This document shows positions 2,841 through 17,475 of a DNA stretch of 32,133 nt, piece after piece (the first letter of the stretch is position 1; each line of letters opens with the position of its first letter). The stretch comes from Chloroflexota bacterium. Lineage in GTDB: Bacteria; Chloroflexota; Anaerolineae; Anaerolineales; Anaerolineaceae. Where the stretch lies: positions 1 through 32,133 of the forward strand of contig JAAZNB010000335.1 in the NCBI GenBank assembly GCA_012798515.1, in the 5' to 3' direction. The notes beneath the pieces were generated by a model, which saw only the letters and a list, made by a program, of their open reading frames with translations, ran no database searches and was not told the DNA's origin. A program made the position numbers and the translations under genes.

Positions 2841-4820
2841 TCAAAATGCATACGGGTTGAACCCATTAACGGCCATGACGTACCACGCGGCGGGGGCGAT
2901 ATGGGGAATGTTCTTGTAGGTCCACGCGTCCCCGGTAAACAGGTCGAATCCCGTCGATAACTCCTCGACGGTGGCGGCGGGAAAGGCGCCATTGGGCTGC
3001 TGGATCGATTGCATGGCGTCCAGCGCTGACCGGGCCTCATCGTGCAAGCCTTGTTCTCTCAATGCCAGTGCGGTGAAAGCCGTACCTTCCGGCCACCAAC
3101 CGCCGTTGGAATTTGCGGCGTGGAAGGGATATCCGCCGGCTTGTGTTTTCATGGCCATGGCTGTAGAGAGTGCGGCGCTGTAGGGGGCGTACGCTTCCTG
3201 ACCGAGGGAAAGCAGCGACCAGACCTGGGCGTCTAACACCAGGTTGTTCTGTTCGGGAGTGACGCCATCATTGCCGGTACCGGTGTAAAAATAGCCTTTC
3301 TCTTGCGCGTACATGGATTGGATAAATTTCCATGCGCTTTCACAGGCCTGTTGGTATCTGGCATCGCCGGTCAGGGTGTAGAGTTGTTTGAACGCCGCAT
3401 AAGCATCGATATTGTGCTCTATGGATTTATAAGTAAAGCGGTATAGCGCCTCGCCATCTCCCTCGGGCCAGCCGTCGTATCCGGCCGTGAAACCAGGGGA
3501 GTCATCGGCGCAGTTTTCGAGCACCCAGTCCATGATCGTCTGGGCGAGGGTGAGATATTCCTCTCCGCCATACAGCCGGTAATATTGCAGTAAGGCCAGG
3601 GCTACGAAGGAACTGTTGCCCACGTTCGTTCCCACCTGGTAACGATCTTCATAGTAGGCCTGATCTGCCACGCTGTACCAGCCCGGCAGGCGTGTGCCAC
3701 TGCCCCAACCCGGAAAAGGCCGGATATCGCCGGCGGCGTATGCGTTACGCAGCCGGTCGGGGCGGTAGCGGTCGTTCTGGACGGCAAAAAGGAAGGCGTC
3801 TACTAGCTGACGAGCTTCATCCTGCATTCCTTCAGACAGAAAGGCCATCGCCGCCAGGGCATTGTCATAACTGAAAGCAGCGTTCTGGATGTATAACTGG
3901 TCTTTGTCGTTACGGGTGTCCGTTTCGTAAGATGGGATCATGCGCGGTGCCCCCTGTAGCGCAGCCATGGGGCCCTCGAAACGAATTTCGTCCAGGTAGA
4001 AACGCGTCTCCTGATCGCCGCTCCGGTTGCCACTGAGCACAAAGCCGAACCCGCAACCAATATTGCTGAGGTCCGCCTGGGTTAGATCGATGTCGTATTG
4101 AACCCATTCCCCGGTGAGGGTGACAAAGCCAAGAGAGCGTTTGGTGCTGCTATCCGGGTAGGGCGCGGTGGGGGCGTTGCTTTCCCCATCATAGCCGAGG
4201 CCGGCCGTGAAGAACTCAACGATCTCGCCGCCCTGCGCGCCCCTGGCCATAAACGAGAGCCGGGTCGCGCCGCTCAAGTCCAGCCCAGCGCCGTCTACTT
4301 CACCGAAGGAAAGGGTGGGGTTGGTCTCCCCTTCGGGCAGGTAACCGTTGACGAACAGCCAACCTCCCCAGGAATTCCCCTGCGTCTTTACCCGCACTTC
4401 GATGGCGCTGTCGCCTGCGTAGGGATCTATCTGCCAGTTCTCGTTCATGTCGTACACAAAATCGGAATGGCCATCGTCGATCTTCGCCTTCTGGGTGAAG
4501 TGATTGGCCGTGGCGGAAAAGTCCCGGTAAACGTATAGCCGGTCTGCCCCATCCTCCTGCCGCGTTTTAAGGTAATTGATCGCGGCGACTTTGGAAGACG
4601 TATAGCGCCCATAGGGCGATTCCTCTTGGGCCGGAGGCGTTTCCTGGGAGGGTAAATCCGGCAGGGCCGGGGTGGCCTCTGGTGAAGAAGCGTGAGGCGT
4701 GTCGTTTGTGGTGACGTCGGGAGCAGGCAGCGGGGGTGTGGCTGTGGCCAGGGATACCGGTTCAGGCATGCATGCGGCTACCAGCAGCCCGCAAATTAAA
4801 ACGGTTGCCAGCTTTTTCAT
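2841..4820 (-). CDS. Lipoprotein, putative glycoside hydrolase/lyase-like with (alpha/alpha) barrel and N-terminal carbohydrate-binding-like beta domain
   Basis: ORF 2841..4952. Preferred start is internal Met45 at 4820 (MKKLATVLICGLLVAACMPEP), which gives a lipobox and has an upstream GAGGGAG RBS. C-terminal helical repeats (QTIMDWVLENC...GYDGWPEGDG...LYTLTGDARYQQACESAWKFIQ...GGWWPEGTAFTALALREQGLHDEA) look like a six-hairpin glycosidase fold. Confidence 0.6.
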   Translation of the reverse strand: MKKLATVLICGLLVAACMPEPVSLATATPPLPAPDVTTNDTPHASSPEATPALPDLPSQETPPAQEESPYGRYTSSKVAAINYLKTRQEDGADRLYVYRDFSATANHFTQKAKIDDGHSDFVYDMNENWQIDPYAGDSAIEVRVKTQGNSWGGWLFVNGYLPEGETNPTLSFGEVDGAGLDLSGATRLSFMARGAQGGEIVEFFTAGLGYDGESNAPTAPYPDSSTKRSLGFVTLTGEWVQYDIDLTQADLSNIGCGFGFVLSGNRSGDQETRFYLDEIRFEGPMAALQGAPRMIPSYETDTRNDKDQLYIQNAAFSYDNALAAMAFLSEGMQDEARQLVDAFLFAVQNDRYRPDRLRNAYAAGDIRPFPGWGSGTRLPGWYSVADQAYYEDRYQVGTNVGNSSFVALALLQYYRLYGGEEYLTLAQTIMDWVLENCADDSPGFTAGYDGWPEGDGEALYRFTYKSIEHNIDAYAAFKQLYTLTGDARYQQACESAWKFIQSMYAQEKGYFYTGTGNDGVTPEQNNLVLDAQVWSLLSLGQEAYAPYSAALSTAMAMKTQAGGYPFHAANSNGGWWPEGTAFTALALREQGLHDEARSALDAMQSIQQPNGAFPAATVEELSTGFDLFTGDAWTYKNIPHIAPAAWYVMAVNGFNPYAF

Positions 4821-4939
4821 CTTGGTTCTCCCTCTGGATAGAGCGATTTGAAGAAAATGGACTGTGTTGTGCCAACCAACCGTGTTTATACATTCGTCAC
4901 CCAGCGTACCGTTCAATTTGGACGGCAGGAGGGTATGAA

Positions 4940-4963
4940 GGAGCCGGCGCATGGGCCGGCTCC
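4940..4963. terminator. GC-rich hairpin, possible terminator at the end of the catabolic operon
   Basis: GGAGCCGGC-(6 nt)-GCCGGCTCC perfect inverted repeat between the RidA-like stop (5034) and the next gene. The T-run is weak, so function is tentative. Confidence 0.45.
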
Positions 4964-5033: not shown

Positions 5034-5495
5034 CTAACGGGAGATAGCAGCCAGCAGCTCGATCTCTACCGGGGCGTTGGAAGGCAGCTCGGCCACGCCG
5101 ATGGCCGAACGGGCATGGCGTCCATGTTCGCCAAATACTTCGATCAGCAGCACAGAAGCGCCTTCGACGACCTGCGGCTGGTCGTTAAACCCCGGGGCCG
5201 AGGCCACGTAGCCGGTCACTCGCAGGATGCGCTCGACCCGGTTCAGGTCGATTAACACGGCCTGGAGCTCGGCCAGGCAGTTCAGGGCGGCCAGGCGGGC
5301 CGACTTTTTGCCGTCTTCCAGCCCCACTTCGGCGCCGAGCTTGCCGGTATAGACCAGTTTCTGATGTACGGTGCCGGTTTGCCCGGAGGCATAGACGATG
5401 TTCTGGTGGACCACGGCGGGTTGATAGGAAGCCACCGGCCTGGGGAGCTCTGGGATCACGATGCCCAATTCTTTCATGCGTTGGTAGATGTTCAT
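5034..5495 (-). CDS. RidA family (YjgF/YER057c/UK114) enamine/imine deaminase-like protein
   Basis: Met40 start of the 5034..5612 ORF: MNIYQRMKELGIVIPELPRPVASYQPAVVHQNIVYASGQTG...LNRVERILRVTGYVASAPGFNDQPQVVEGASVLLIEVFGEHGRHARSAIGVAELPSNAPVEIELLAAI matches the RidA pattern. Confidence 0.85.
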   Translation of the reverse strand: MNIYQRMKELGIVIPELPRPVASYQPAVVHQNIVYASGQTGTVHQKLVYTGKLGAEVGLEDGKKSARLAALNCLAELQAVLIDLNRVERILRVTGYVASAPGFNDQPQVVEGASVLLIEVFGEHGRHARSAIGVAELPSNAPVEIELLAAISR

Positions 5496-5529
5496 CTTTT
5501 CACTCCAGTATGTATTTTCCCTGTTCCGG

Positions 5530-6654
5530 TTATTGGATCGAAAAACGCCGGACCTTGTCTTCATCGACCACAATGCCAAGCCCCGGTCCGTCTGGGATGG
5601 TGAAAGCGCCATCCCGGATGGACAGTTTCTCTGGCAGGATGTCGTCCTGGTGGGTCATGTAGGTGCTGTCCATGGGGCGTGAAAATGCCGGCTTGGCCGC
5701 ATAGACCTGTAAAATAGCCGCCGTCTTGATGCCCAGGTCGAATCCGCAATGGTGGATGAGTGGCAGGCCGGCTTCTTCACCCAGGTCTGCGATACGCACG
5801 AGCTCTGTAATGCCGCCCAAAGGATCCATATCGACCACGGCGGCATCGATGGCGTTCGCTTGAACGTAATTGAACAGATTATGGGGGACGTAGCAATCCT
5901 CGTTGACGGCAATGGGGGTCTTGAAGCGTTTGTGCAGCTCGGCCAGGGCGTTGAACTGATTGACGCGTAGGGGCTGTTCCACGTATTCAAGCGCCAGGGG
6001 TTCGGCCTGAGACAGGAAATGGGCGGCTGCGATGAAATCGTAAGCCTCGTTCATGTCCACCCGGATGTTCAAGCGATCTGCTCCGATCTGGCGCATGAGC
6101 TCTGCGCGGCGCAGGTCGAAGGCAACGTCGTTTCCCCCGGTGGTTTTTATAGTATGGTAACCGGCATCGAGGATCTCTTGCACCCGTTCAGCGGTTACGG
6201 TTAAATCTTCCAACCCCAGGCAATAAGCAACGTTCACCCGGTCCCTGATTTTTCCACCCAGCAGGGTGTACACCGGCAGGCCCAGTGCCTTGCCGGCCGC
6301 ATCCCAACAAGCCATGTCGATTCCGGAGAGGATCCCCCGCACGCCCACCGGCGGCTCGATGGATTTGGCGGCGCGATACTGGCGGGCGTTGGCTTGAAGA
6401 CAATCCATTCCGAGCACCAGGGGACGGATGTAATGTTGGAACAAAGCAGCCTGAACGGCCGGGTTGATGACCGCGTTGGTTTCCCCCCAGCCGGTGATGC
6501 CTTCACGGGTGGTTACCTTGACCAGGCAGCTGGCTGCGCTGCGGATGCCTTCCCCGGGGGGGAGGTCGTGGCCGCGATAGGGGGCGATACCGCCTTTCTC
6601 GACCGGGGTAACCGGGATGGACACAAAGAAAATCTCTGCCTCTTGGATGATCAT
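5530..6654 (-). CDS. Mandelate racemase/muconate lactonizing enzyme family protein (enolase superfamily), paralog 1, altered KxK motif
   Basis: Start chosen at MIIQEAEIFFVSIPVTP (6654; GAGGG RBS), aligning with paralog 2. Motifs: RVDMNEAYD, EYVEQPL, AVNEDCY, VVDMDPLGG, HHCGFDLGI. The ORF can extend to 6690. Confidence 0.85.
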   Translation of the reverse strand: MIIQEAEIFFVSIPVTPVEKGGIAPYRGHDLPPGEGIRSAASCLVKVTTREGITGWGETNAVINPAVQAALFQHYIRPLVLGMDCLQANARQYRAAKSIEPPVGVRGILSGIDMACWDAAGKALGLPVYTLLGGKIRDRVNVAYCLGLEDLTVTAERVQEILDAGYHTIKTTGGNDVAFDLRRAELMRQIGADRLNIRVDMNEAYDFIAAAHFLSQAEPLALEYVEQPLRVNQFNALAELHKRFKTPIAVNEDCYVPHNLFNYVQANAIDAAVVDMDPLGGITELVRIADLGEEAGLPLIHHCGFDLGIKTAAILQVYAAKPAFSRPMDSTYMTHQDDILPEKLSIRDGAFTIPDGPGLGIVVDEDKVRRFSIQ

Positions 6655-6686
6655 GCTTCCCTCATTCCCATACACGGGGTGCCGTT

Positions 6687-7826
6687 TCATTCCTGGCCGG
6701 CGCTTTCCAGCGAATAGCGCCGGATCTTATCTTCGTCGACCGTTACACCCAACCCGGGACCCTGGGGAACCAGATAATGCCCCTCCACAATCTGAATGGG
6801 TTCGACCAGGATGTCGTCGGCGTGTCCCATGTAGGTGCTGTCCACCGCATGCGACAGCGCCGGCCTGGCCGCGTAGACCTGCAGGATGGCGGCCAGCTTG
6901 ATGCCCATGTCGAACCCACAGTGATGGGCCAGGGGCAAGCCTGCTTCGGCGCAGTAGTTGGCCACCTTGACCAGCGCGGAGATCCCGCCCAATGGGTCCA
7001 GGTCTACTACGGCCAGGTCGATGGCCTTTTGGCGGATGAACTCAAACAGGTTGTGGGGGATGTAGCAATCCTCGTTGATAGCCACAGGCGTTTTGCAGCG
7101 GCTGCGCAGGGCCGCCATAGCATCGAACTGGTTCACCGGAAGAGGCTGTTCGATGTACTCCAGATCCAGGGACTCTGTGCTGTTCAAGAAGCGCGCCGCC
7201 TGGGTGAAGTCGTAGCCCTGGTTCATATCGATGCGTAAATTCATCTCGGGGCCGGTGTGTTCTCGGGCGGCGAAGGTGCGCTGCACGTCGGACACGACGT
7301 CGCCGCCGCCTTTGATTTTCAGGGTGGGGAACCCTTGCTCGCGGATCGACAGGATCTTTTCCCGGGTGGCTTCTTCCTCGAAGATGCCGATGCAGTAGGC
7401 AATGCCGACCCGCTCACGAATCATGCCCCCCAGCAGGTCGTAGACGGGGCGGTTGGCAGCCTGGCCGAGTATGTCCCAGCAGGCCATGTCGATGCCGGCC
7501 AGGAGGCTTCTGGAGAAGAGGGGCGGCACGAAGCTAGGGGAGATTTTCCTGCAAATTTCTTCACGATTCAGCGGGTCCGAGCCGATCAGGGCCGGCCGTA
7601 GAACTTCTTCGAAAAGGGCCCGGTGGAAGGAAAAGTTCACAACCGGGTTAGTCTCGCCCCAGCCCACCAGGCCGTCATCTGTCACCACTTTGTAGATACA
7701 GCTGGCGGCGCTGGTCAGCCCCTGGCCGGGGGGAAGGTTGTGTCCCCGGTAGGGGGCGATCCCCCCGGCGGCAATGGGGATCAATGGAATCCGGACGACA
7801 AATAATTCGATTTGCTCGATTTTCAT
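6687..7826 (-). CDS. Mandelate racemase/muconate lactonizing enzyme family protein (enolase superfamily), paralog 2
   Basis: MKIEQIELFVVRIPLIPIAAGGIAPYRGHNLPPGQGLTSAAS...PTLKIKGGGD...LRIDMNQGYD...EYIEQPL...AINEDCY...VVDLDPLGG...HHCGFDMGI. Confidence 0.9.
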   Translation of the reverse strand: MKIEQIELFVVRIPLIPIAAGGIAPYRGHNLPPGQGLTSAASCIYKVVTDDGLVGWGETNPVVNFSFHRALFEEVLRPALIGSDPLNREEICRKISPSFVPPLFSRSLLAGIDMACWDILGQAANRPVYDLLGGMIRERVGIAYCIGIFEEEATREKILSIREQGFPTLKIKGGGDVVSDVQRTFAAREHTGPEMNLRIDMNQGYDFTQAARFLNSTESLDLEYIEQPLPVNQFDAMAALRSRCKTPVAINEDCYIPHNLFEFIRQKAIDLAVVDLDPLGGISALVKVANYCAEAGLPLAHHCGFDMGIKLAAILQVYAARPALSHAVDSTYMGHADDILVEPIQIVEGHYLVPQGPGLGVTVDEDKIRRYSLESAGQE

Positions 7827-7863
7827 ATTGATCTTTCGCCGAACTTGCGTAGTGATCGACGGC

Positions 7864-8718
7864 CTATCCCTTGACGGCGCCCTGGGCCAGGCCGCCCACG
7901 ATGTATTTCTGCATGAAGAAGAAGATGATGATGACCGGGATGGAGATGATCACCGAAGCGGCCATGGTGCTTCCCCAATCGATCTTGAACAGGGAAGCAA
8001 ACTCGGTCAGACCGATGGGAAGCGTCCGCGACTTGTCCGAAGCAGTCAACACGGAGGCCAGGGTGAATTCGTTCCAGGATTGTACGAAGGCGTACATGCC
8101 GGCGGCCGCCACGCCGGGCGCGGCGATGGGGAGGATCACCAGCCGGAGGGCCTGCAAGCGAGAACAACCTTCCATCTGGGCGGCCTCTTCCAGGTCGATG
8201 GGAATGGTATCGATGTAGCCTTTACACAACCATGTCACCAGGGGCATGGTCAGGGTCAGGTGGGCCAGGGCCAGGCCAAAGACCGTGTCGTACAGTTCGA
8301 AGCGGGAGATGAACAGATACAACGGGACCATGACCACCGTGGCCGGCAGCATCTGGCTGCCTAAAATAAACATGGAGATGCCGCTGGTACCTCGGGATTT
8401 CCTGCGCGCCAGCCCATAGCCGGTAACGCCGCCGGCCAGCACAGAGACAACCGCTACGATGGAACTGACCAGAACGCTGTTCAAGAAATGGCGCGGAATA
8501 GACGAGTTGGTGAGAACGTTGATGTAATTCTCCAGGGTGGGGTGGTCTGGTATCCACCGGGGTGGAATCGACATGACCTCATTGGCCGGTTTGAACGAGG
8601 TGCTGATGATCCATAATAATGGGAATATCACGAACAGGGACAGGATAATCAACAAGGCGTAGACCACGGTCCGGTTGACGTACTTGGGAATGATGTATTT
8701 CCATTTCGGGTCGATCAT
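7864..8718 (-). CDS. Carbohydrate ABC transporter permease (MalG/UgpE type)
   Basis: Start at Met69 of the 352-aa ORF (MIDPKWKYIIPKYVNRTVVYALLIILSLFVIFPLLWIISTSFKPANEVM). The TAATG overlap with the upstream stop (8718-8720) suggests translational coupling. EAAQMEGCSRLQALRLVILPIAAPG matches the EAA motif. Confidence 0.9.
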   Translation of the reverse strand: MIDPKWKYIIPKYVNRTVVYALLIILSLFVIFPLLWIISTSFKPANEVMSIPPRWIPDHPTLENYINVLTNSSIPRHFLNSVLVSSIVAVVSVLAGGVTGYGLARRKSRGTSGISMFILGSQMLPATVVMVPLYLFISRFELYDTVFGLALAHLTLTMPLVTWLCKGYIDTIPIDLEEAAQMEGCSRLQALRLVILPIAAPGVAAAGMYAFVQSWNEFTLASVLTASDKSRTLPIGLTEFASLFKIDWGSTMAASVIISIPVIIIFFFMQKYIVGGLAQGAVKG

Positions 8719-9602
8719 TAAGCACCTTCCTTGTTGGTCCGGCTGAGGTAAAAGACCGTAATCAGCATGCTGATGCACAGCTGCAGCATGGCGGTTGCCG
8801 ATGCGCCACGTAAATCGAACATCAAGAACTTCTGGTAGATGTCGAGAGACAAAACGCTCGTCGCTCTGGCTGGGCCGCCCTGGGTTACGATCCAGATCAC
8901 AGCGAAGGTGTTGATGGCCCAAATGGTGGAAATGAGGATGGCGATAAAGATGATGTCTTTGATGAGGGGAATCTGGATGTGCGTCAGGTATTGGAACCAG
9001 TTGACGCCATCCAGAAGGGCGCTATCCCGGTAGTCTTTGCTGATGGTTTGCAAGCCGGCGCTGACCATCAACATGGTGTAAGGAAATTCTGACCATACCT
9101 GGATGATGACCACTGCCATAAAGGCAATGTGGGGATCCGTGAGCCAGGAGACCGGTTCTTTGACAATGCTCAAGGAAACCAGCAGGTGGTTCAACATTCC
9201 AAAATCGTAGCTGTAAAGCCATTTCCAGGATTGGGCTTTGACTACGCCAGGGGTGATCCAGGCCAATAACAAGATGGAACGCCAGACATTCTTGTGGGTG
9301 ACGAAGTCTTGATCGATCAAGGTGGCGGAACCGAAACCCAGGATGAATGAGAATATGACGGTCAGGATCATCCAGACCAGGGTTGTCCTGAGCATATCGA
9401 AGAAATGAGAGCCATTCAGCACCCGGATGTAATTGGCCAGGGTCAGGGAAAGGTTATCATCGGACGCCGAAAAGCTTAAGAAAACTGTCCTGCCCAGGGG
9501 ATACAAAATGATCAAAGCGATGATCAGGAATCCCGGAAGGATGTAAATATAATCCTGGAAGGCTTTTTTATAGTATCGCTGGAGTTGGCTCATGGTGATC
9601 AA
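8718..9602 (-). CDS. Carbohydrate ABC transporter permease (MalF/UgpA type)
   Basis: Six predicted TM segments by eye; EAA-like loop DSALLDGVNWFQYLTHIQIPLIKDI. Alternative start at Met4 (9593). Confidence 0.9.
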   Translation of the reverse strand: MITMSQLQRYYKKAFQDYIYILPGFLIIALIILYPLGRTVFLSFSASDDNLSLTLANYIRVLNGSHFFDMLRTTLVWMILTVIFSFILGFGSATLIDQDFVTHKNVWRSILLLAWITPGVVKAQSWKWLYSYDFGMLNHLLVSLSIVKEPVSWLTDPHIAFMAVVIIQVWSEFPYTMLMVSAGLQTISKDYRDSALLDGVNWFQYLTHIQIPLIKDIIFIAILISTIWAINTFAVIWIVTQGGPARATSVLSLDIYQKFLMFDLRGASATAMLQLCISMLITVFYLSRTNKEGA

Positions 9603-9813
9603 CCTGTTCTACAAGGCGCCCCTGGGAAAAAGAAAACCGCATTCCAAAGTCTTTCAATAGGGACCACAATTTTGAGAAAATCTGAATCCTGGAATGGGTC
9701 CGAAGACATACTCCGCAGCTTATTTTATCCTTCCGTCTGCGATGCTGGTGCTTTGAAAAGAATCCATAAGCGCGGAGCATGTATCGGATCTCTAATAATC
9801 TCCCGGAGGGGCC

Positions 9814-11181
9814 CTATTGGGCGAGGAGTTGGTCGACCTCAGCGCACATATCGTTGAGCGCCTGGTCTACGTCTTTGCCGTTGATCATAACTTCCTGCAT
9901 TTCGGCGAAGATAGCGGTCTGCATGGAAGGCCAGTTGACGAACGTGGGGCCGGCTCTCCCGGAGTCCATTTGCTCGATGAAGGGCTGGAAGAGCGGTTCG
10001 GAGAACTTTTCGAGGCTCATGGCGCTTCTACGGGCAGGGAAGGTCGTGGTCAGGCGGCCACTGTTTTCGGGCAGGCCGATGAAGTTGAGCAGCTCCCAGG
10101 CCGCGTCTTTATTCTTGGCGTTCTCTGGGATGTACAGGCTGAACCCATTGACGATCGTCAGGCCGATGCCGTCACCGTTGCCAGGATAAGTCGCCGTTCC
10201 GATGTTGATGTCGGGGGCCTGGCTCTGGATTTCAGGAATGTCGAAGGCGCCGTTGCTGTAGATGGCAATCTTCTTGTTGATGAACAGGTTCCGCAGGCCG
10301 GTGTTATCCACTTCCAGAGCGCTGTGCGGGGTGACCTCGTCGACGTTGAGGTTATTGTTCAGGTACTCCATGGCCTGTTTGCCGGCTTCGGAGTTCAATT
10401 CACACTGGGTGCCTTCTTCGTTAGTGATCGAGCCGCCGAAATTGTAGGCCATCTGGTAGAAGCGAACCACGGCATTGCCTTCGTTACCCAGCGGCCAACC
10501 GATGCCGTACTGGTCGATGGTCCCATCGCCGTCGGTATCCTTGGTCAGCAGTTTGGCGACCTCGTTCAGTTCGTCCCAGGTGGCTGGGAATGCGTCGGGG
10601 TCGAGACCGGCTTCTTCGAACATATCTTTGTTGTAAATCATGGCCGGCCCGTCGTGGCGCATCGGCATGGCATACAGGCTACCATCATACGTGGCCAGGT
10701 CGATGGCTGAGGTGAAGAAATCGTCCATGTCGACGTTGCTGGCCGTGTAATATGAATCCAGGTTAGCAAGCAGGCCCTGAGAGGCATAGGAAGCAACCCG
10801 CGATTCCAGGTCGGTGATCACGTCGGGGGCATTGTTGCCGTTCAATGCGGTCCGAATTTGCCCTTCCATCGTGTCCCAGGTAGTGATGACGACCTCGACC
10901 TTGATGTTGGGGTATTGAGCTTCGAACTCGTCGATCAAGACGGTAGCAACTTCCTCGTCCCAGTTCGGTACCCACCAGGTGATGGTAACCGGTTCACTGG
11001 ATTCCGCAGCGGCCGGTTCTTCCACCGGAGCGGTTTCGGTTTCGGCGTCACTGCTTTCAACGGCGGTCGCTTCCGGAGCGACCTGGGTGGCGGCGTCTTG
11101 GGCCGGCGCGGCGGGGGAACAAGCGCCGATGAGCGCCACTAAAACCAGCATGCAAATAACATAGTAAACGCGTGACTTCAT
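9814..11181 (-). CDS. Extracellular solute-binding protein (family 1), sugar ABC transporter lipoprotein
   Basis: Signal peptide and lipobox (MKSRVYYVICMLVLVALIGACSPAAPAQ); ITWWVPNWDEEVATVLIDEFEAQYPNIKVEVV...MPMRHDGPAMIYNKDMFEEAGLDPDAFPATWDELNEVAKLLT is typical of family 1 SBPs. Confidence 0.92.
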   Translation of the reverse strand: MKSRVYYVICMLVLVALIGACSPAAPAQDAATQVAPEATAVESSDAETETAPVEEPAAAESSEPVTITWWVPNWDEEVATVLIDEFEAQYPNIKVEVVITTWDTMEGQIRTALNGNNAPDVITDLESRVASYASQGLLANLDSYYTASNVDMDDFFTSAIDLATYDGSLYAMPMRHDGPAMIYNKDMFEEAGLDPDAFPATWDELNEVAKLLTKDTDGDGTIDQYGIGWPLGNEGNAVVRFYQMAYNFGGSITNEEGTQCELNSEAGKQAMEYLNNNLNVDEVTPHSALEVDNTGLRNLFINKKIAIYSNGAFDIPEIQSQAPDINIGTATYPGNGDGIGLTIVNGFSLYIPENAKNKDAAWELLNFIGLPENSGRLTTTFPARRSAMSLEKFSEPLFQPFIEQMDSGRAGPTFVNWPSMQTAIFAEMQEVMINGKDVDQALNDMCAEVDQLLAQ

Positions 11182-11224
11182 GTTAGTCCTCCATGTTCTT
11201 GAGAAACAGAGTCTACTCCATTTA

Positions 11225-11236
11225 GTAGATATCTAC
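11225..11236. repeat. Perfect 12-bp palindrome GTAGATATCTAC upstream of the SBP gene
   Basis: Direct reading; overlaps an inverted repeat TCTACT(11212-11217)/AGTAGA(11224-11229). Confidence 0.6.
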
Positions 11237-11317
11237 GACTGAGCTATCCGGTTTTTCCGATGTTCACCTCCTCTACGCTCGAGGCTTGCCAGGAGTTTTC
11301 CCTGGCTATCTACCCCG

Positions 11318-12067
11318 TCATCTGCTGTGAGCCTCGTTCAGGATGTGCTCTGAGAATCTATGCAGGTTGTCGATGGATAAACGCAGCAGGGTGCGACCGA
11401 TTTCCAGATCAGTTTGGGTTGGGTCGCCGGTTGCCCCACTTTGGGAGAAGTCTTTCACCACCTGTGAGGCTAACGTGCCCTCGATAAACTTGCCCCACAC
11501 GGGCGATGAACCTTGGGTAGATGCCTTGAATTGGTCCGGGTGGACCAGGGAGGCATTGATGGCCATGAGCATGGCCGTTTCGGCTTCGTCGGCGTGCAGC
11601 GGCGGACGGCGCCCAAAGATTTCGATGATTTGGGCTTCGATGGCCTCGAACCACGTCCATACGTACACGTGGTAATCGCCCTCCAGTTGGAGGTAACGCG
11701 CCATCTCTCGCAGCGGTTCGCGGTTGCCGCCGTGCCCGTTGACGATCAATACGTGGTCTATGCCGTGATATTTCAGGCTCTTTACGATTCCGCCCACGTA
11801 TAGTTTCAACACCTCCGGGCTTACCCATAAAGATCCGAAGAAATCACGATGGTATTCTGAGACGCCCACGGGCACGGCCGGCAACAAAACGGTGCGGTCA
11901 AGATCCAAAGTGGCCGCGGTGGCTTCGGCGATGAACAGGTCCGTCCCCAGGGGGGCGTGCAAACCGTGCTGTTCGACGCTGCCCACCGGTAGCACCGCCA
12001 GTAAGGGCGCGGCGGACTTTTCTCTCAGCTCAGCCCAGGTGTAGTCGATCATCCGTTTTTTACTCAT
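11318..12067 (-). CDS. Creatininase family amidohydrolase
   Basis: MIDYTWAELREKSAAPLLAVLPVGSVEQHGLHAPLGTDLFIAEA...VNGHGGNREPL...ADEAETAMLMAI: classic creatininase-family metal-binding motifs (EQHG, NGHGGN, HADEAET). Confidence 0.92.
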   Translation of the reverse strand: MSKKRMIDYTWAELREKSAAPLLAVLPVGSVEQHGLHAPLGTDLFIAEATAATLDLDRTVLLPAVPVGVSEYHRDFFGSLWVSPEVLKLYVGGIVKSLKYHGIDHVLIVNGHGGNREPLREMARYLQLEGDYHVYVWTWFEAIEAQIIEIFGRRPPLHADEAETAMLMAINASLVHPDQFKASTQGSSPVWGKFIEGTLASQVVKDFSQSGATGDPTQTDLEIGRTLLRLSIDNLHRFSEHILNEAHSR

Positions 12068-13409
12068 GATGGATTTTTCCCAGCTGTTTCAGTTCTTCCC
12101 CAAAAGCGACGATGTTGTCTTTGGGAGCATCGTGGTACCACATGTGAAGCATGAAGCCGTCTGCCCCGGCTTTGGCCGCCAACTGCACGGCCTGACGCAC
12201 GTCATCAGTCGTGGCCGGCGAGTCGGCCACCAGGCCGGCGATGATGGGGTGGTGGGGGCCGACCTCCAACCTGGCTTTCCTGACCTCGTAGTAGACGTTT
12301 TCCACGCCAATCCCGTCTTTGACGAACTCGTCCATCTGGTATGAACCGCTGAAGCCTTTCAGACGATAGTACTGGTCCAGAATTTCCCGGTCACTGATTT
12401 CCGGTATGGCTCCCTGGATACGTTTCAGCGGTTTGGCCTCGAAGCTGCCGATGCATTTGTGGTAAAGCATCAGCTTGGTCATGTCAGTGAGCCCGGGCTG
12501 GTCGGCGTATACCTGCCCCAACGTCCACGAAAAACTGGGCGCCACCAGGTCGCTGGAGAGCTGCACGGTCGGGTCGATGTGCTTCAGAAAATTGCGGAAC
12601 TGCAGTACGAAATCGTTGACCAGGCCAGAGCGGAATTTGATCCAGGTTAACAGGTCCTGGTGTTGGAGCAGGTAGCGGACGATATCGAAGACGCCCCGGT
12701 ACGCGTCGCTCAGGTCCAAGAAGCTCTGGTAATTGAGGTGAGTGGCTTCCTTGTGAATGGCCCGAATTTCACGCTTGATACGGTCGACGTTGATGCCCTG
12801 CGCCTGGGCCCTTTTGACGCAGTGGTCACAGAAACAATTGCCAATAGCGAGGCGTCCCAGGGGGTTCAACTCGGGCAGGACCCAGTCAGGTACCACCTGG
12901 GGATCGTAAAAGTCGAGGCTCACCACGTCCAGCTCGACCTCGCGAATACCGGCATTGTGGCGAAGGATATCTTCTACCCGGCCCATGAAGTAGTTGCGCA
13001 CGTCCGGGTTGCTGGGACACATCCAGTGTTTGCTCTTATTGCCATCGATGTCCATGACGGCTACGTCTGGATAGGCGGCCACAATGGGCTCGCTCACGCC
13101 TGGGGTAATGTTAACCTCGAGGTTCAGGTCGTAACGCCGGGCCAGGGCACGCACCTCATTGAAATCAGAAGTGATCAGGTGGTACTTGGTCCCGAAGATG
13201 TCTCCCTGGTTTTTCTCGAAATCGATTTGAATGTGGGGGTCAATTTTTGTAAGCTCATAATATTGGGGATTAACGTCGAACGTATGGGCGATACCGGCGT
13301 ACATCAAGTGAGAAATGCCCGCTTCTTGATAGCGCTGAAAAGCCTTATCGAGACCTTCTGTATAGTCCTCATCAAAGATTGGCCAGGCTCCAACGTAGGT
13401 TTTTGTCAT
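12060..13409 (-). CDS. Putative TIM-barrel glycoside-hydrolase-like protein
   Basis: Start at Met7 (13409) with GGAG RBS: MTKTYVGAWPIFDEDYTEGLDKAFQRYQEAGISHLMYAG...MCPSNPDVRNYFMGRVEDILR...GNCFCDHCVKRAQAQGIN. CFCxxC and alternating beta/alpha pattern resemble GH-like barrels. Overlaps the downstream creatininase start by 8 nt. Confidence 0.55.
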   Translation of the reverse strand: MTKTYVGAWPIFDEDYTEGLDKAFQRYQEAGISHLMYAGIAHTFDVNPQYYELTKIDPHIQIDFEKNQGDIFGTKYHLITSDFNEVRALARRYDLNLEVNITPGVSEPIVAAYPDVAVMDIDGNKSKHWMCPSNPDVRNYFMGRVEDILRHNAGIREVELDVVSLDFYDPQVVPDWVLPELNPLGRLAIGNCFCDHCVKRAQAQGINVDRIKREIRAIHKEATHLNYQSFLDLSDAYRGVFDIVRYLLQHQDLLTWIKFRSGLVNDFVLQFRNFLKHIDPTVQLSSDLVAPSFSWTLGQVYADQPGLTDMTKLMLYHKCIGSFEAKPLKRIQGAIPEISDREILDQYYRLKGFSGSYQMDEFVKDGIGVENVYYEVRKARLEVGPHHPIIAGLVADSPATTDDVRQAVQLAAKAGADGFMLHMWYHDAPKDNIVAFGEELKQLGKIHHE

Positions 13410-13478
13410 GCACGTCTCCAAATCCACCTATAGAAATGCCTTATCATCTCTATAAGAATTAGAAAGAGTTTTCTCTAG

Positions 13479-13496
13479 AAAGGAAATATTTTCTTT
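13479..13496. promoter_or_regulatory. Candidate LacI-family operator 1
   Basis: AAAGGAAATATTTTCTTT near-perfect palindrome, about 16-33 nt downstream of the predicted start of the minus-strand operon. Shares the 11-mer GAAATATTTTC with site 2. Confidence 0.5.
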
Positions 13497-13651: not shown

Positions 13652-13662
13652 GAAATATTTTC
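13652..13662. promoter_or_regulatory. Candidate LacI-family operator 2
   Basis: GAAATATTTTC identical to the core of site 1, about 30-40 nt downstream of the putative plus-strand start. Confidence 0.4.
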
Positions 13663-13870: not shown

Positions 13871-14905
13871 ATGGCAGTAATTTTAAAAGATGTCGCTAAC
13901 AAGTTGAACGTATCGATTTCGACGGTTTCGAAGGCCATCAACAACCGGCCCGGGATCAGCGACGAACTACGGTCCAGAATCCTCCAGACGATCGAGGAGA
14001 TGGGCTACCAATCCAGTGTCCGGGTGGAACGCACATTTTTCCCGGCGGGGGGCAACACGGCGCCGACCATCAACCTCAGCATCCGGACCAACGACTCTTA
14101 CCTGACCGAGTCGTTCTATACGTTGATCTCTCAGGAGATTACCCGCCAGCTGCAAGAACACCAATACAACATCCTCTTCAACGTGATCAGCAAGAGTGAT
14201 CTCAGCCCGGACGAATTCACCTCGATCTTCGAATCGAACAATTCCAATGCCTTTATCATCATCGGCGCGGATATCGATCAGCGCCTGTTCGAAGAAATCA
14301 AGCAGACCGGTGTGACGACTGTGCTGGTGGACAATGACTTCGATGGTTTCAGTTCGGTGAACACGGACAACGTCCAGGGCGCGCAGAGCGCCGTCGAATA
14401 CCTGGCCGGCCTGGGGCACCGGGATATCCTCTGCCTGGCCGGTCCTTTGCACCACAAGAGTATCCAGGGCCGTTACCAGGGGTACTTACGCGCCATCCAG
14501 GCCCAGCGCCTGCCCGGCAAACCGCGCCTCATCGAGTGCCCCGGGGTGAGTATCAACGATGGACTGGAGGCCATCGCCAGCCTCAAGGAGATTGATTTTA
14601 CGGCCGTTTTCGGCTGCACGGATAAACTTGCCATCGGCGCCATGAAAGGCCTGCAAAAGCGAGGGATCAAGGTTCCCGAGCAGGTCAGTGTGATGGGCTT
14701 CGACGACATCGAATGGGGCCTGCACACCGAGCCGGAACTGACCACCGTCAAGACGGCGAAGCGACAAATCGCCCGCATGGCAACCAAGGTGGTGCTGGAT
14801 CTGCTCGAGAATCAAGAGAGCTATCGTATGGAAGTCGTCATTGGGACGGAGATCCTCGTCCGCGGGTCGACCGGCGAGGTAGATGGGGCCGGCCGTACCC
14901 CATAG
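13871..14905 (+). CDS. LacI family transcriptional regulator
   Basis: MAVILKDVANKLNVSISTVSKAINNRPGISDELRSRILQTIEEMGYQ HTH; C-terminal PBP-like domain ending ...SVMGFDDIEWGLHTEPELTTVKTAKRQIARMA. Confidence 0.95.
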   Translation: MAVILKDVANKLNVSISTVSKAINNRPGISDELRSRILQTIEEMGYQSSVRVERTFFPAGGNTAPTINLSIRTNDSYLTESFYTLISQEITRQLQEHQYNILFNVISKSDLSPDEFTSIFESNNSNAFIIIGADIDQRLFEEIKQTGVTTVLVDNDFDGFSSVNTDNVQGAQSAVEYLAGLGHRDILCLAGPLHHKSIQGRYQGYLRAIQAQRLPGKPRLIECPGVSINDGLEAIASLKEIDFTAVFGCTDKLAIGAMKGLQKRGIKVPEQVSVMGFDDIEWGLHTEPELTTVKTAKRQIARMATKVVLDLLENQESYRMEVVIGTEILVRGSTGEVDGAGRTP

Positions 14906-15258: not shown

Positions 15259-17475
15259 ATGAAATATATTGGCCAATCTGTTCCCCGAATCGATGCAGCC
15301 ACGAAAGTTAAAGGCGAAGCGGTTTTTGCCTCGGACATCAAGATGCCCGGACAGGTGTACATGAAGATGGTCATGGCCCGCCGCCCGCATGCCATCGTGA
15401 AGCATGTGGACATCTCTGGCGCACAGGCCGTGCCTGGCGTCGTATGCGTACTCACCTCGCGGGACGTGCCTTGCAACGAGTTCGGCTATTACACCTACGA
15501 TCAGCCGGTGTTGTGCGGCCCGTGCAGCAAACCTTACGCTGACCGGGTGCGGTTTGTGGGGGACCGGGTGGCTGCCGTGGTTGCAGAAACCGAAGAGATT
15601 GCCCAACGCGCCTGTGCTCTGATTCAGGTGGAATACGAAGATTTGCCTGTGGTGTGCGATGCCGAAGAGGCCATGCAGCCTGGCGCGCCCGTGCTGCACC
15701 CGGACGTGGGTTCCAACGTGTTCGACCACCACAAGCTTTACAATGGAGACGTGGAGGCAGGCTTTCGCCAGGCCGACGTGATCGTGGAATCGGTCTTCGA
15801 TACCCCTCCCCAGGAACATGCCTTTTTACAGACCGAATCGGGGCTGGCCTACATCGACACAGAAGGGCGGGTCGCCGTGGTCACGGCCGGGCAATGGGGG
15901 ATCAAGGACCGTAAACAGGTGGCTCATGCGCTCGGCCTGGCCGAAGATGCCGTGCGGGTGATTTACCCAATGACGGGGGGAGCTTTTGGGGGCCGTGAAG
16001 ATATTTCGGTGCAGATCATCGTGGCCCTGGCGGCGCTCAAACTGCAACAGAGGGGAACGCCGCGCCCGGTTAAAGTGGTCTGGACGCGAGAGGAGTCCAT
16101 GCTGGGCCATTGCAAGCGCCATCCCATCCGTTTCTTCGCTCGCTGGGGCGCCACCCGGGAGGGGAAGATCGTCGCCGCCGAAGTGCGGATGCTGGCCGAT
16201 GGGGGCGCCTATAAATTCACCACCAGCATCGTCACCAGTAACGCGGTGATTAACTCCCTGGGCCCCTATGAAATTGCCAACGTCAAGGTAGACGCCTACG
16301 ACGTCTATACCAATAACGTCCCGCGGGGCGCCTTTCGAGGCTTCGGCGGCCCCCAGGCGGTTTTTTGCTCGGAACAGATGGTCAACAAACTGGCAGAGGC
16401 GTTGGGGTTGGACCCCATGGAATTGCGCATGCGCAACCTGGCCAGAGAAGGTTCTCTGCAGACCATCGGCGCGCCTTATCCGCCGGGGATGACCATCCGC
16501 CAGGTGTCCGAGGCCTGCGCTCAAAAGGCGGGCTGGCAACCAGGGCAGGCTGGCTGGAAACTGGGACGCCAATTCCCCAGAGTCGACCCTGAACGGCCCT
16601 ACCTGCACCGCGGGTTGGGATTGGCCTGTGCGCACAAGAACGTGGGCTTTTCATACGGCTATCCCGAGAATTGCACCATCGGGATCGACCTGTACGGCGA
16701 TTCTGAAATCGAGCAGGCGGTGATTCGCCATAGCGCCAGTGAAGTCGGCATGGGGGCACACACGGTCATTACCCAGATGGCCGCCGACGCGTTGGGCCTG
16801 GCCATGGATCAAATCAGGCTGATCTCTACCGACACGGCCCTGGTCGCGGATTCGGGGTCTGTCTCAGCCTCTCGCATGACCTTTTTTATCGGCAACGCAA
16901 TCAAAGAGGGCGCCGAGAAAGCCCTGGAGTTGTGGAAAAGCGGGCCCCATCCTGTGCACATGGAACATACTTACTGGCCATACCGGACTACTGCGCCCGA
17001 CCCGGAGACCGGGCAATGCGATCCCAACGCAGCTTATGCATACACGGCCCAGGCGGTCGAGGTCGTGGTGGATACGGAAACCGGGCAGGTGAAGATCGAG
17101 AAGATATACTGCGCCATCGACGTAGGCAAGGCCATCAATCCCCAACAGGTACGCGCTCAAATTCAGGGCGGGCTGGTCCAATCGGTGGGCTACTCGATGC
17201 TGGAGAATTTCGTCGAAAAACAGGGCCGGGTTCTCACGCCCAGCCTATCCACCTACCTGGTGCCGACTGTGCTGGATATCCCGCCGGAATTGGACATTAT
17301 GGTCCTGGAAATCCCCGATCCTCGCGGCCCCTGGGGCGCCCGTGGCCTGGGGGAAGTAATGAGCATGTGCCTGGTTCCGGCTGTGACGGCCGCCGTATTT
17401 GACGCCACGGGCGTGTGGTTCGATCATTTCCCGCTGGTGCCAGAAGTGGTGTTGGAAGGTCTCACGAACCGATAA
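15259..17475 (+). CDS. Xanthine dehydrogenase family protein, molybdopterin-binding (large) subunit
   Basis: 738 aa; IGQSVPRIDAATKVKGEAVFASDIKMPG, GGAFGGRED, PRGAFRGFGGPQ, C-terminal GARGLGE. Appears full length. Confidence 0.93.
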   Translation: MKYIGQSVPRIDAATKVKGEAVFASDIKMPGQVYMKMVMARRPHAIVKHVDISGAQAVPGVVCVLTSRDVPCNEFGYYTYDQPVLCGPCSKPYADRVRFVGDRVAAVVAETEEIAQRACALIQVEYEDLPVVCDAEEAMQPGAPVLHPDVGSNVFDHHKLYNGDVEAGFRQADVIVESVFDTPPQEHAFLQTESGLAYIDTEGRVAVVTAGQWGIKDRKQVAHALGLAEDAVRVIYPMTGGAFGGREDISVQIIVALAALKLQQRGTPRPVKVVWTREESMLGHCKRHPIRFFARWGATREGKIVAAEVRMLADGGAYKFTTSIVTSNAVINSLGPYEIANVKVDAYDVYTNNVPRGAFRGFGGPQAVFCSEQMVNKLAEALGLDPMELRMRNLAREGSLQTIGAPYPPGMTIRQVSEACAQKAGWQPGQAGWKLGRQFPRVDPERPYLHRGLGLACAHKNVGFSYGYPENCTIGIDLYGDSEIEQAVIRHSASEVGMGAHTVITQMAADALGLAMDQIRLISTDTALVADSGSVSASRMTFFIGNAIKEGAEKALELWKSGPHPVHMEHTYWPYRTTAPDPETGQCDPNAAYAYTAQAVEVVVDTETGQVKIEKIYCAIDVGKAINPQQVRAQIQGGLVQSVGYSMLENFVEKQGRVLTPSLSTYLVPTVLDIPPELDIMVLEIPDPRGPWGARGLGEVMSMCLVPAVTAAVFDATGVWFDHFPLVPEVVLEGLTNR

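Follow-up and report, generated by a model that had tools for sequence, protein, structure and literature searches.

A LacI-associated bacterial operon that joins enolase-superfamily, creatininase-family and Rid proteins, tentatively linked to N-acetylhexosamine catabolism

We analyzed a 32,133-nucleotide contig (JAAZNB010000335.1, assembly GCA_012798515.1) assigned to a Chloroflexota bacterium of the family Anaerolineaceae, referred to here in its full length as the window, which carries an apparent catabolic operon. Open reading frame calls and Pfam searches placed eight co-directional genes on the minus strand (5034-13409) and a LacI-family gene divergent from them on the plus strand (13871-14905; PF00356/PF13377), which is the layout that an earlier note on this DNA had described, with several start sites now corrected. 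From the regulator outwards, the operon encodes a glycoside hydrolase-like (GH-like) protein with a predicted TIM barrel (gene 1, 449 amino acids, 12060-13409), a creatininase-family amidohydrolase (249 amino acids, 11318-12067; PF02633, 1.9e-57), a CUT1-like ABC solute-binding lipoprotein (SBP, 9814-11181; PF01547, 1.3e-44), ABC permeases of the UgpA/MalF type (8718-9602; PF00528) and MalG type (7864-8715; PF00528), a mandelate-racemase-type enolase (enolase 1, 6687-7826; PF13378/PF02746), its sister paralogue (enolase 2, 5530-6654; 54% identical to enolase 1) and a Rid1-type Rid protein (5034-5495; PF14588, 8.8e-22). Gene 1 most likely starts at the ATG at 13409, as judged by alignment with the Paenibacillus copy, and the reading frames gave starts at 8715 for permease 2, about 6654 for enolase 2 and 5495 for Rid. 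With these corrections, the apparent enolase 2/enolase 1 and Rid/enolase 2 overlaps turn into gaps of approximately 32-34 bp, whereas the 8 bp overlap between the GH-like and creatininase-family genes remains.

The sequence GAAATATTTTC occurs as two exact 11-mer copies in the window, with 0.01 expected in shuffled sequence, and both copies (13483-13493 and 13652-13662, with no strand assigned) lie inside the gap between the LacI gene and the operon, making the pair likely candidates for LacI operators. The corresponding gap in a Paenibacillales genome described below (G413) contains the perfect palindrome AAATTTCGCGAAATTT. Searches of the window for tRNA genes and Rfam families found nothing.

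The SBP and two permeases match the components expected of a CUT1 sugar ABC importer; the operon holds no ATPase gene to accompany them. It also contains no pyridoxal phosphate (PLP) enzyme, and the dehydrogenase, 2-keto-3-deoxygluconate (KDG) kinase and aldolase of a complete KDG pathway are absent from it, as had been remarked before, but genes of these kinds occur in homologous loci.

Two Paenibacillales genomes match the window operon gene for gene, at 42-66% identity. A scan of approximately 85,000 species genomes with gene 1 recovered one close relative, Paenibacillus sp. MSJ-34 (65%), in which the order is LacI, GH-like, creatininase, SBP, permease, permease, enolase and an SDR dehydrogenase. 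In the second genome, G413, the genes stand in this order as well, and after them comes a Rid protein that shares 62% identity with the window's. In both relatives the SDR fills the slot that enolase 2 occupies in the window. Identity to the Paenibacillales copies is 65-66% for the GH-like protein (Paenibacillus locus L034 and G413), 55-57% for the creatininase-family protein, 50-53% for the SBP, 46% and 60% for permeases 1 and 2, and 50% for enolase 1; the LacI proteins at the same place in loci L034 and L109 are 42-46% identical to the window's. Because the same order recurs in Paenibacillus sp. MSJ-34 and G413, the gene set is not a chance assembly: it travels together in other genomes, which settles in its favor the earlier note's proviso that the set might prove not to be conserved. 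Close copies were present in 2 of 300 Paenibacillales genomes, and no other was found among 121 genomes of the window's own order or 400 sampled from its phylum. An enolase search of 400 phylum genomes returned distant members only (best 35%), and around remote homologues of the GH-like protein (25-30%), from other Paenibacillales and from the window's phylum, the full gene set was not repeated. This rare and patchy occurrence suggests horizontal transfer.

To characterize the enolases, we aligned 17 members of their clade. The metal ligands D200, E226 and E252 are invariant, as are K170, the beta-6 aspartate D275, the beta-7 histidine H301/H302, and D329. Enolase 1 has a complete KxK motif (K170/K172) together with the His/Asp pair. 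The second lysine is found in 16 of the 17 sequences and is replaced by threonine only in enolase 2 (K172T, KTT), whose KxK is thereby incomplete and which also carries Q203E. By analogy with mandelate racemase, enolase 1 would have two possible bases, and enolase 2 the His/Asp base only. A tree that included outgroup enolases gave the clade a support of 1.0 and placed enolases 1 and 2 as sisters (0.979), pointing to a duplication in the window's lineage after its split from Paenibacillus. The best named NCBIfam matches fell far below their cut-offs (AraD, 148 against 650; galactonate dehydratase, 146 against 311; TalGalacDh, 126 against 500), and with every equivalog score under its cut-off the named sugar-acid dehydratase identities were rejected; the genes therefore do not simply belong to one known pathway, an outcome that had been allowed for at first. 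Dipeptide epimerases typically have a lysine at beta-6; here that lysine is absent and the His/Asp pair is present instead, and this identity was rejected as well. Among solved chains the nearest are 4dye and 2oqh, which carry no label beyond "isomerase", and a single-sequence structure prediction for enolase 1 was of low confidence (pLDDT 38.5).

The nearest solved chain to the window Rid is PA0814 (8e-38), a Rid1 protein that deaminates imines in vitro (PMC5619798). The equivalent of Arg-105 predicts imine deaminase activity in Rid proteins (PMC5619798); it corresponds to R129 in the window Rid and is invariant in nine sequences that cover both Rid types, so that the window protein appears to carry the signature of an imine deaminase. 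The haloarchaeal Rid tested is of the RidA type and scores above the TIGR00004 cut-off, whereas the window and G413 proteins do not. Two Rid subfamilies thus fill one slot, an argument that imine hydrolysis is needed. Like creatininase (creatinine amidohydrolase), the creatininase-family protein belongs to PF02633 (194.9 bits against a gathering cut-off of 31.3) and has a conserved metal-ligand-like pattern, with E32, H34, D43, H112 and E163 invariant in 10 relatives. It differs from creatininase in the strict sense, and was rejected as such, in its NGHGGN motif (NGHYEN in creatininase) and in its TIGR04448 score (61.9 against 235 bits).

The GH-like protein has no Pfam match above cut-off. 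It has a hit to GHL10/DUF4015 (E 0.003, 17.2 against 27.9 bits), which 9 of 16 members matched weakly; the earlier description of gene 1 as a TIM-barrel hydrolase is thus plausible, on matches that stay below threshold. A CFCxxC motif, R260 and W295 are invariant across 16 relatives, and the protein is probably cytoplasmic, with no signal peptide evident by eye. Profiles of the family matched Cwp19 (E 0.002), a beta-galactosidase and a beta-N-acetylhexosaminidase (E 0.002-0.035), weakly enough to be suggestive only; Cwp19 is a peptidoglycan lytic transglycosylase (PMC6016235). A single-protein PDB search gave no match, and an AlphaFold model from a two-sequence alignment was of low confidence (pLDDT 38.8).

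We also searched plasmids by tblastn with gene 1 and enolase 1, and both queries led to haloarchaea. In the ranking for the clade enolase, the first 34 records are all haloarchaeal, and beyond them identity falls from 46.6% to 33.2%. Haloferax mediterranei and H. larsenii have IclR, a UgpC ATPase, creatininase, SBP, permeases, GH-like, enolase, SDR and Rid, followed by eda and kdgK1; the Haloarcula operon follows the Haloferax order, with a HAD phosphatase after Rid. Halostagnicola has a minimal module of IclR, a gluconate-type (GntP-type) symporter, enolase, creatininase and Rid, with no SDR, and in one Haladaptatus copy of this symporter module an SDR replaces Rid. In Halomicrobium the same core is joined by a DHDPS-family protein and an acetamidase/formamidase, with a beta-N-acetylhexosaminidase upstream, and in Haladaptatus DYSN1 by a second enolase type and an acetamidase.

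Islands in Halorussus and Haladaptatus combine GH18, creatininase, NagZ, NamZ, GH-like, serine hydrolase, HAD hydrolase and AnmK with SDR, an oligopeptide-type importer, enolase and a PIG-L deacetylase, and in one case Rid; compared with the Haloferax operon, their enolase is 52% identical, creatininase 60%, SDR 46% and GH-like protein 28%. Halomontanus has two NamZ genes with enolase, creatininase and GH-like, and GH3, NamZ and AnmK also stand together among the haloarchaeal amino-sugar neighbors. Taking the best place in each plasmid record, 27 of the 29 plasmids with both genes had the creatininase gene no more than 20 kb from the clade enolase (3.0 expected); the same held for a GH-like gene in 19 of 21 (2.4 expected) and for the exo-muramidase NamZ in 10 of 11 (1.1 expected).

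Several observations stand beside these. Two plasmid islands, L129 (NZ_CP100402.1, 238000-268000) and L132 (NZ_CP085329.1, 524000-556000), hold GH18, NagZ, NamZ, AnmK, a serine hydrolase, an oligopeptide-type importer and a PIG-L deacetylase together with the enzyme module, and L129 also has a PGRP gene; in this content they resemble salvage loci of the peptidoglycan or chitin type. An enolase-superfamily gene of another kind adjoins the clade enolase in loci L133 (15262-16392) and L106 (10580-11728); the pairing recalls that of the window, but this gene is not orthologous to enolase 2. The GH-like query from L129 matched 112 Rhizobium plasmid records, among them a distant, full-length member (28%) on Rhizobium etli p42c (locus L136, 8995-10179) that adjoins aspartoacylase-like, Rid and amino acid deaminase genes. 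We did not count p42c as a further copy, its setting being a different one with neither enolase nor creatininase.

Together, these observations appear to suggest, in a way that falls a little short of making it probable, that the window's operon is under LacI control and serves the catabolism of an N-acetylhexosamine glycoside or of its oxidized (aldonate) form. The amino-sugar part of this reading comes from the distant haloarchaeal copies, which adjoin genes that dismantle N-acetylated sugars. The earlier note had suggested that the substrate may be a sugar acid containing nitrogen, a lactam or an amide; the archaeal loci, with N-acetylhexosamine genes and KDG-type kinase and aldolase genes, favor the first of these, and a lactam fits less well. 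The note's inference is in this way partly borne out, and narrowed. Our proposal, for the substrate as for every reaction, builds on gene content, conservation, catalytic-residue patterns and neighborhood association. The sugar would be imported by the SBP and permeases with a shared ATPase, and the GH-like protein would release a monosaccharide. Oxidation at C1 would then yield a lactone or aldonate, presumably through the SDR in the relatives and through an enzyme encoded elsewhere in the case of the window. The creatininase-family enzyme may cut the amide (N-deacylation) or open the lactone, and amide cleavage could precede or follow dehydration; instead of deacylation, acetamide might be released and then cut by an acetamidase, as the two acetamidase loci hint. 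Enolase 1 would take off the proton at C2 and the substituent at C3 (water, or lactate if the substrate is muramic acid) to give an enamine/imine, whose hydrolysis to KDG and ammonia Rid would accelerate, and KDG kinase and aldolase would complete the route. Enolase 2 probably handles another epimer or another step.

A dehydratase with a Rid partner and an amidohydrolase would be called for because nitrogen at C2 of the aldonate is proposed to give a 2-enamine/imine. Dehydration would be PLP-independent, by a metal-dependent enolase-type enzyme acting with a separate Rid, and would yield a 2-keto-3-deoxy acid and ammonia. Since the minimal Halostagnicola module consists of a GntP-type symporter with enolase, creatininase and Rid, these three look like the chemical core, and the compound imported there is probably the acid itself; sugar importer, GH-like protein and SDR would have been added where uptake is presumably of a sugar or glycoside. 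The broader claim that this is a PLP-independent, non-phosphorylative N-acetylhexosamine route shared by bacteria and halophilic archaea, and that it extends to muramic acid from bacterial cell walls, we consider doubtful as yet. It would comprise C1 oxidation, amide hydrolysis by the creatininase-family enzyme, elimination by the enolase (of water, or of lactate from oxidized N-acetylmuramic acid, MurNAc) and, as a genuine step of the pathway, hydrolysis of the imine to KDG with the help of Rid, and in the window a duplicated one-base enolase would stand at the position of the dehydrogenase.

A number of points weigh against the amino-sugar assignment. The evidence for it is entirely haloarchaeal, and the window proteins are distant from the haloarchaeal copies (enolase 36-40%, creatininase 26-31%, GH-like 18-23%). 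A reference-set search, with Pfam on parts of L034, recognized no amino-sugar gene in approximately 9-10 kb around the two Paenibacillales copies, so the close bacterial copies give no clue to the substrate, which may have shifted. The Haloferax and Haloarcula operons have no adjoining amino-sugar hydrolase, a search of the window's genome bin found no NamZ, and the window operon itself lacks the SDR. No close solved enolase homologue has a known function. Binomial probabilities for the co-locations (1e-24 to 1e-9) are overstated, the plasmids being related and the counts not independent, although the direction is still clear; several Halorussus and Haladaptatus records represent one conserved island that was counted repeatedly.

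The window, contig C439, comes from a bin of 4.9 Mb in 768 contigs with a contamination value of 8.96, and its GC content (57%) lies below that of nine sampled stretches of the same bin (59-65%). Its placement in the bin is therefore uncertain, and mis-binning is possible. Candidates for the enzymes missing from the operon were found elsewhere in the bin. Contig C322 brings together a KDG-kinase-like gene, an SDR that shares 40% identity with the Paenibacillales one and a truncated KDPG aldolase at the contig end, along with a sugar ABC importer, a 4-carboxy-4-hydroxy-2-oxoadipate-aldolase-like gene and an IclR/KdgR-like gene (locus L156); a full KDPG aldolase is on contig C77. Within the window, directly beyond the LacI gene, 15259-17475 encodes the subunit of a xanthine-dehydrogenase-type oxidoreductase that binds molybdopterin; this enzyme might be an alternative source of the missing C1 oxidation. 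The operon is followed at once, on the same strand, by 2841-4952, which encodes a 703-amino-acid protein with only a sub-threshold match to GH127 (beta-L-arabinofuranosidase). The gene at 756-2741 encodes an unusual fusion in which WD40-like PD40 repeats are joined to a Peripla_BP_4 sugar-binding domain.

A strong rival, which we hold to be possible if somewhat doubtful, is a nitrogen-free sugar-acid or glycoside pathway in which the GH-like protein cuts a glycoside, the SDR oxidizes the sugar, the creatininase-family enzyme acts as a lactonase, the enolase dehydrates an aldonate to KDG, and Rid is a general quencher. The eda and kdgK1 genes adjoining the Haloferax operons and the gluconate-type symporter in two loci fit it, as do SDRs scoring above a loose "glucose 1-dehydrogenase" subfamily cut-off and best named enolase matches to arabinonate and galactonate dehydratases and muconate cycloisomerase; those enolase equivalog scores, however, are all far under cut-off. 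This rival also leaves aside the NamZ, NagZ, AnmK and acetamidase neighbors, the recruitment of Rid from two subfamilies would be odd for a general quencher, and the creatininase is retained even with an acid symporter and without an SDR. An amide or peptide module acting on muropeptide stems or lactams, with the creatininase-family protein as peptidase or amidase and the enolase as epimerase, appears improbable: oligopeptide ABC importers, PGRP and serine hydrolase genes occur in some loci, an M81 metallopeptidase in two, and within NCBIfam the MftE peptidase is the nearest relative of the creatininase, but the enolase has the His/Asp pair in place of a beta-6 lysine, the window and main operons have a sugar-type importer, and KDG enzymes lie nearby. 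A cyclitol pathway, with the creatininase-family enzyme opening a diketo ring as IolN does, is very hard to credit, since the IolN match (2e-10; 1e-16 for the Haloferax copy) is far below the cut-off of 245 bits, on which score an IolN-type identity was rejected, and no inositol dehydrogenase or IolE-type gene was seen in the operons.

If the N-acetylhexosamine reading is correct, Rid would be a dedicated pathway enzyme, not a damage-control protein, enolase-superfamily chemistry would reach amino-aldonates, and halophilic archaea would gain a recognizable means of consuming bacterial cell-wall sugars. The reading also proposes a role for groups to which no function is attached today (an enolase clade, a subgroup of the creatininase family and a family resembling glycosidases), and the module can be addressed in the cultivable Haloferax mediterranei and Haloarcula hispanica. 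The archaea that carry murein-sugar genes merit separate study.

The operon is real and conserved, and would represent a variant of the enolase-dehydratase sugar-acid pathways. The open-access literature searched, on creatininase with enolase and RidA and on N-acetylglucosaminate and related names, yielded no account of such a pathway. Known MurNAc salvage routes use the MurQ etherase or AmgK/MurU. In Halorussus, Haladaptatus and Halomontanus, genes of MurNAc and peptidoglycan salvage (NamZ, NagZ, AnmK, HAD phosphatase) border the module, but the enolase/creatininase/SDR/Rid module is no part of those routes, and salvage genes are absent near the window. A chemical precedent for the proposed elimination is cis-3-hydroxy-L-proline dehydratase, an enolase-superfamily enzyme that dehydrates a beta-hydroxy amino acid to an imine; the window enolase matches its model (NF043002, 3.9e-37) but scores 128 against a cut-off of 500 and has no proline genes around it. 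With non-phosphorylative aldonate pathways of the DeLey-Doudoroff type (for example galactonate or gluconate dehydratase with KDG kinase and KDPG aldolase), the module shares an enolase-superfamily dehydratase-like protein, an SDR in the relatives and kdgK1/eda beside the Haloferax version; it differs from them in enolases that score far below every named dehydratase and in a core that includes creatininase-family and Rid proteins.

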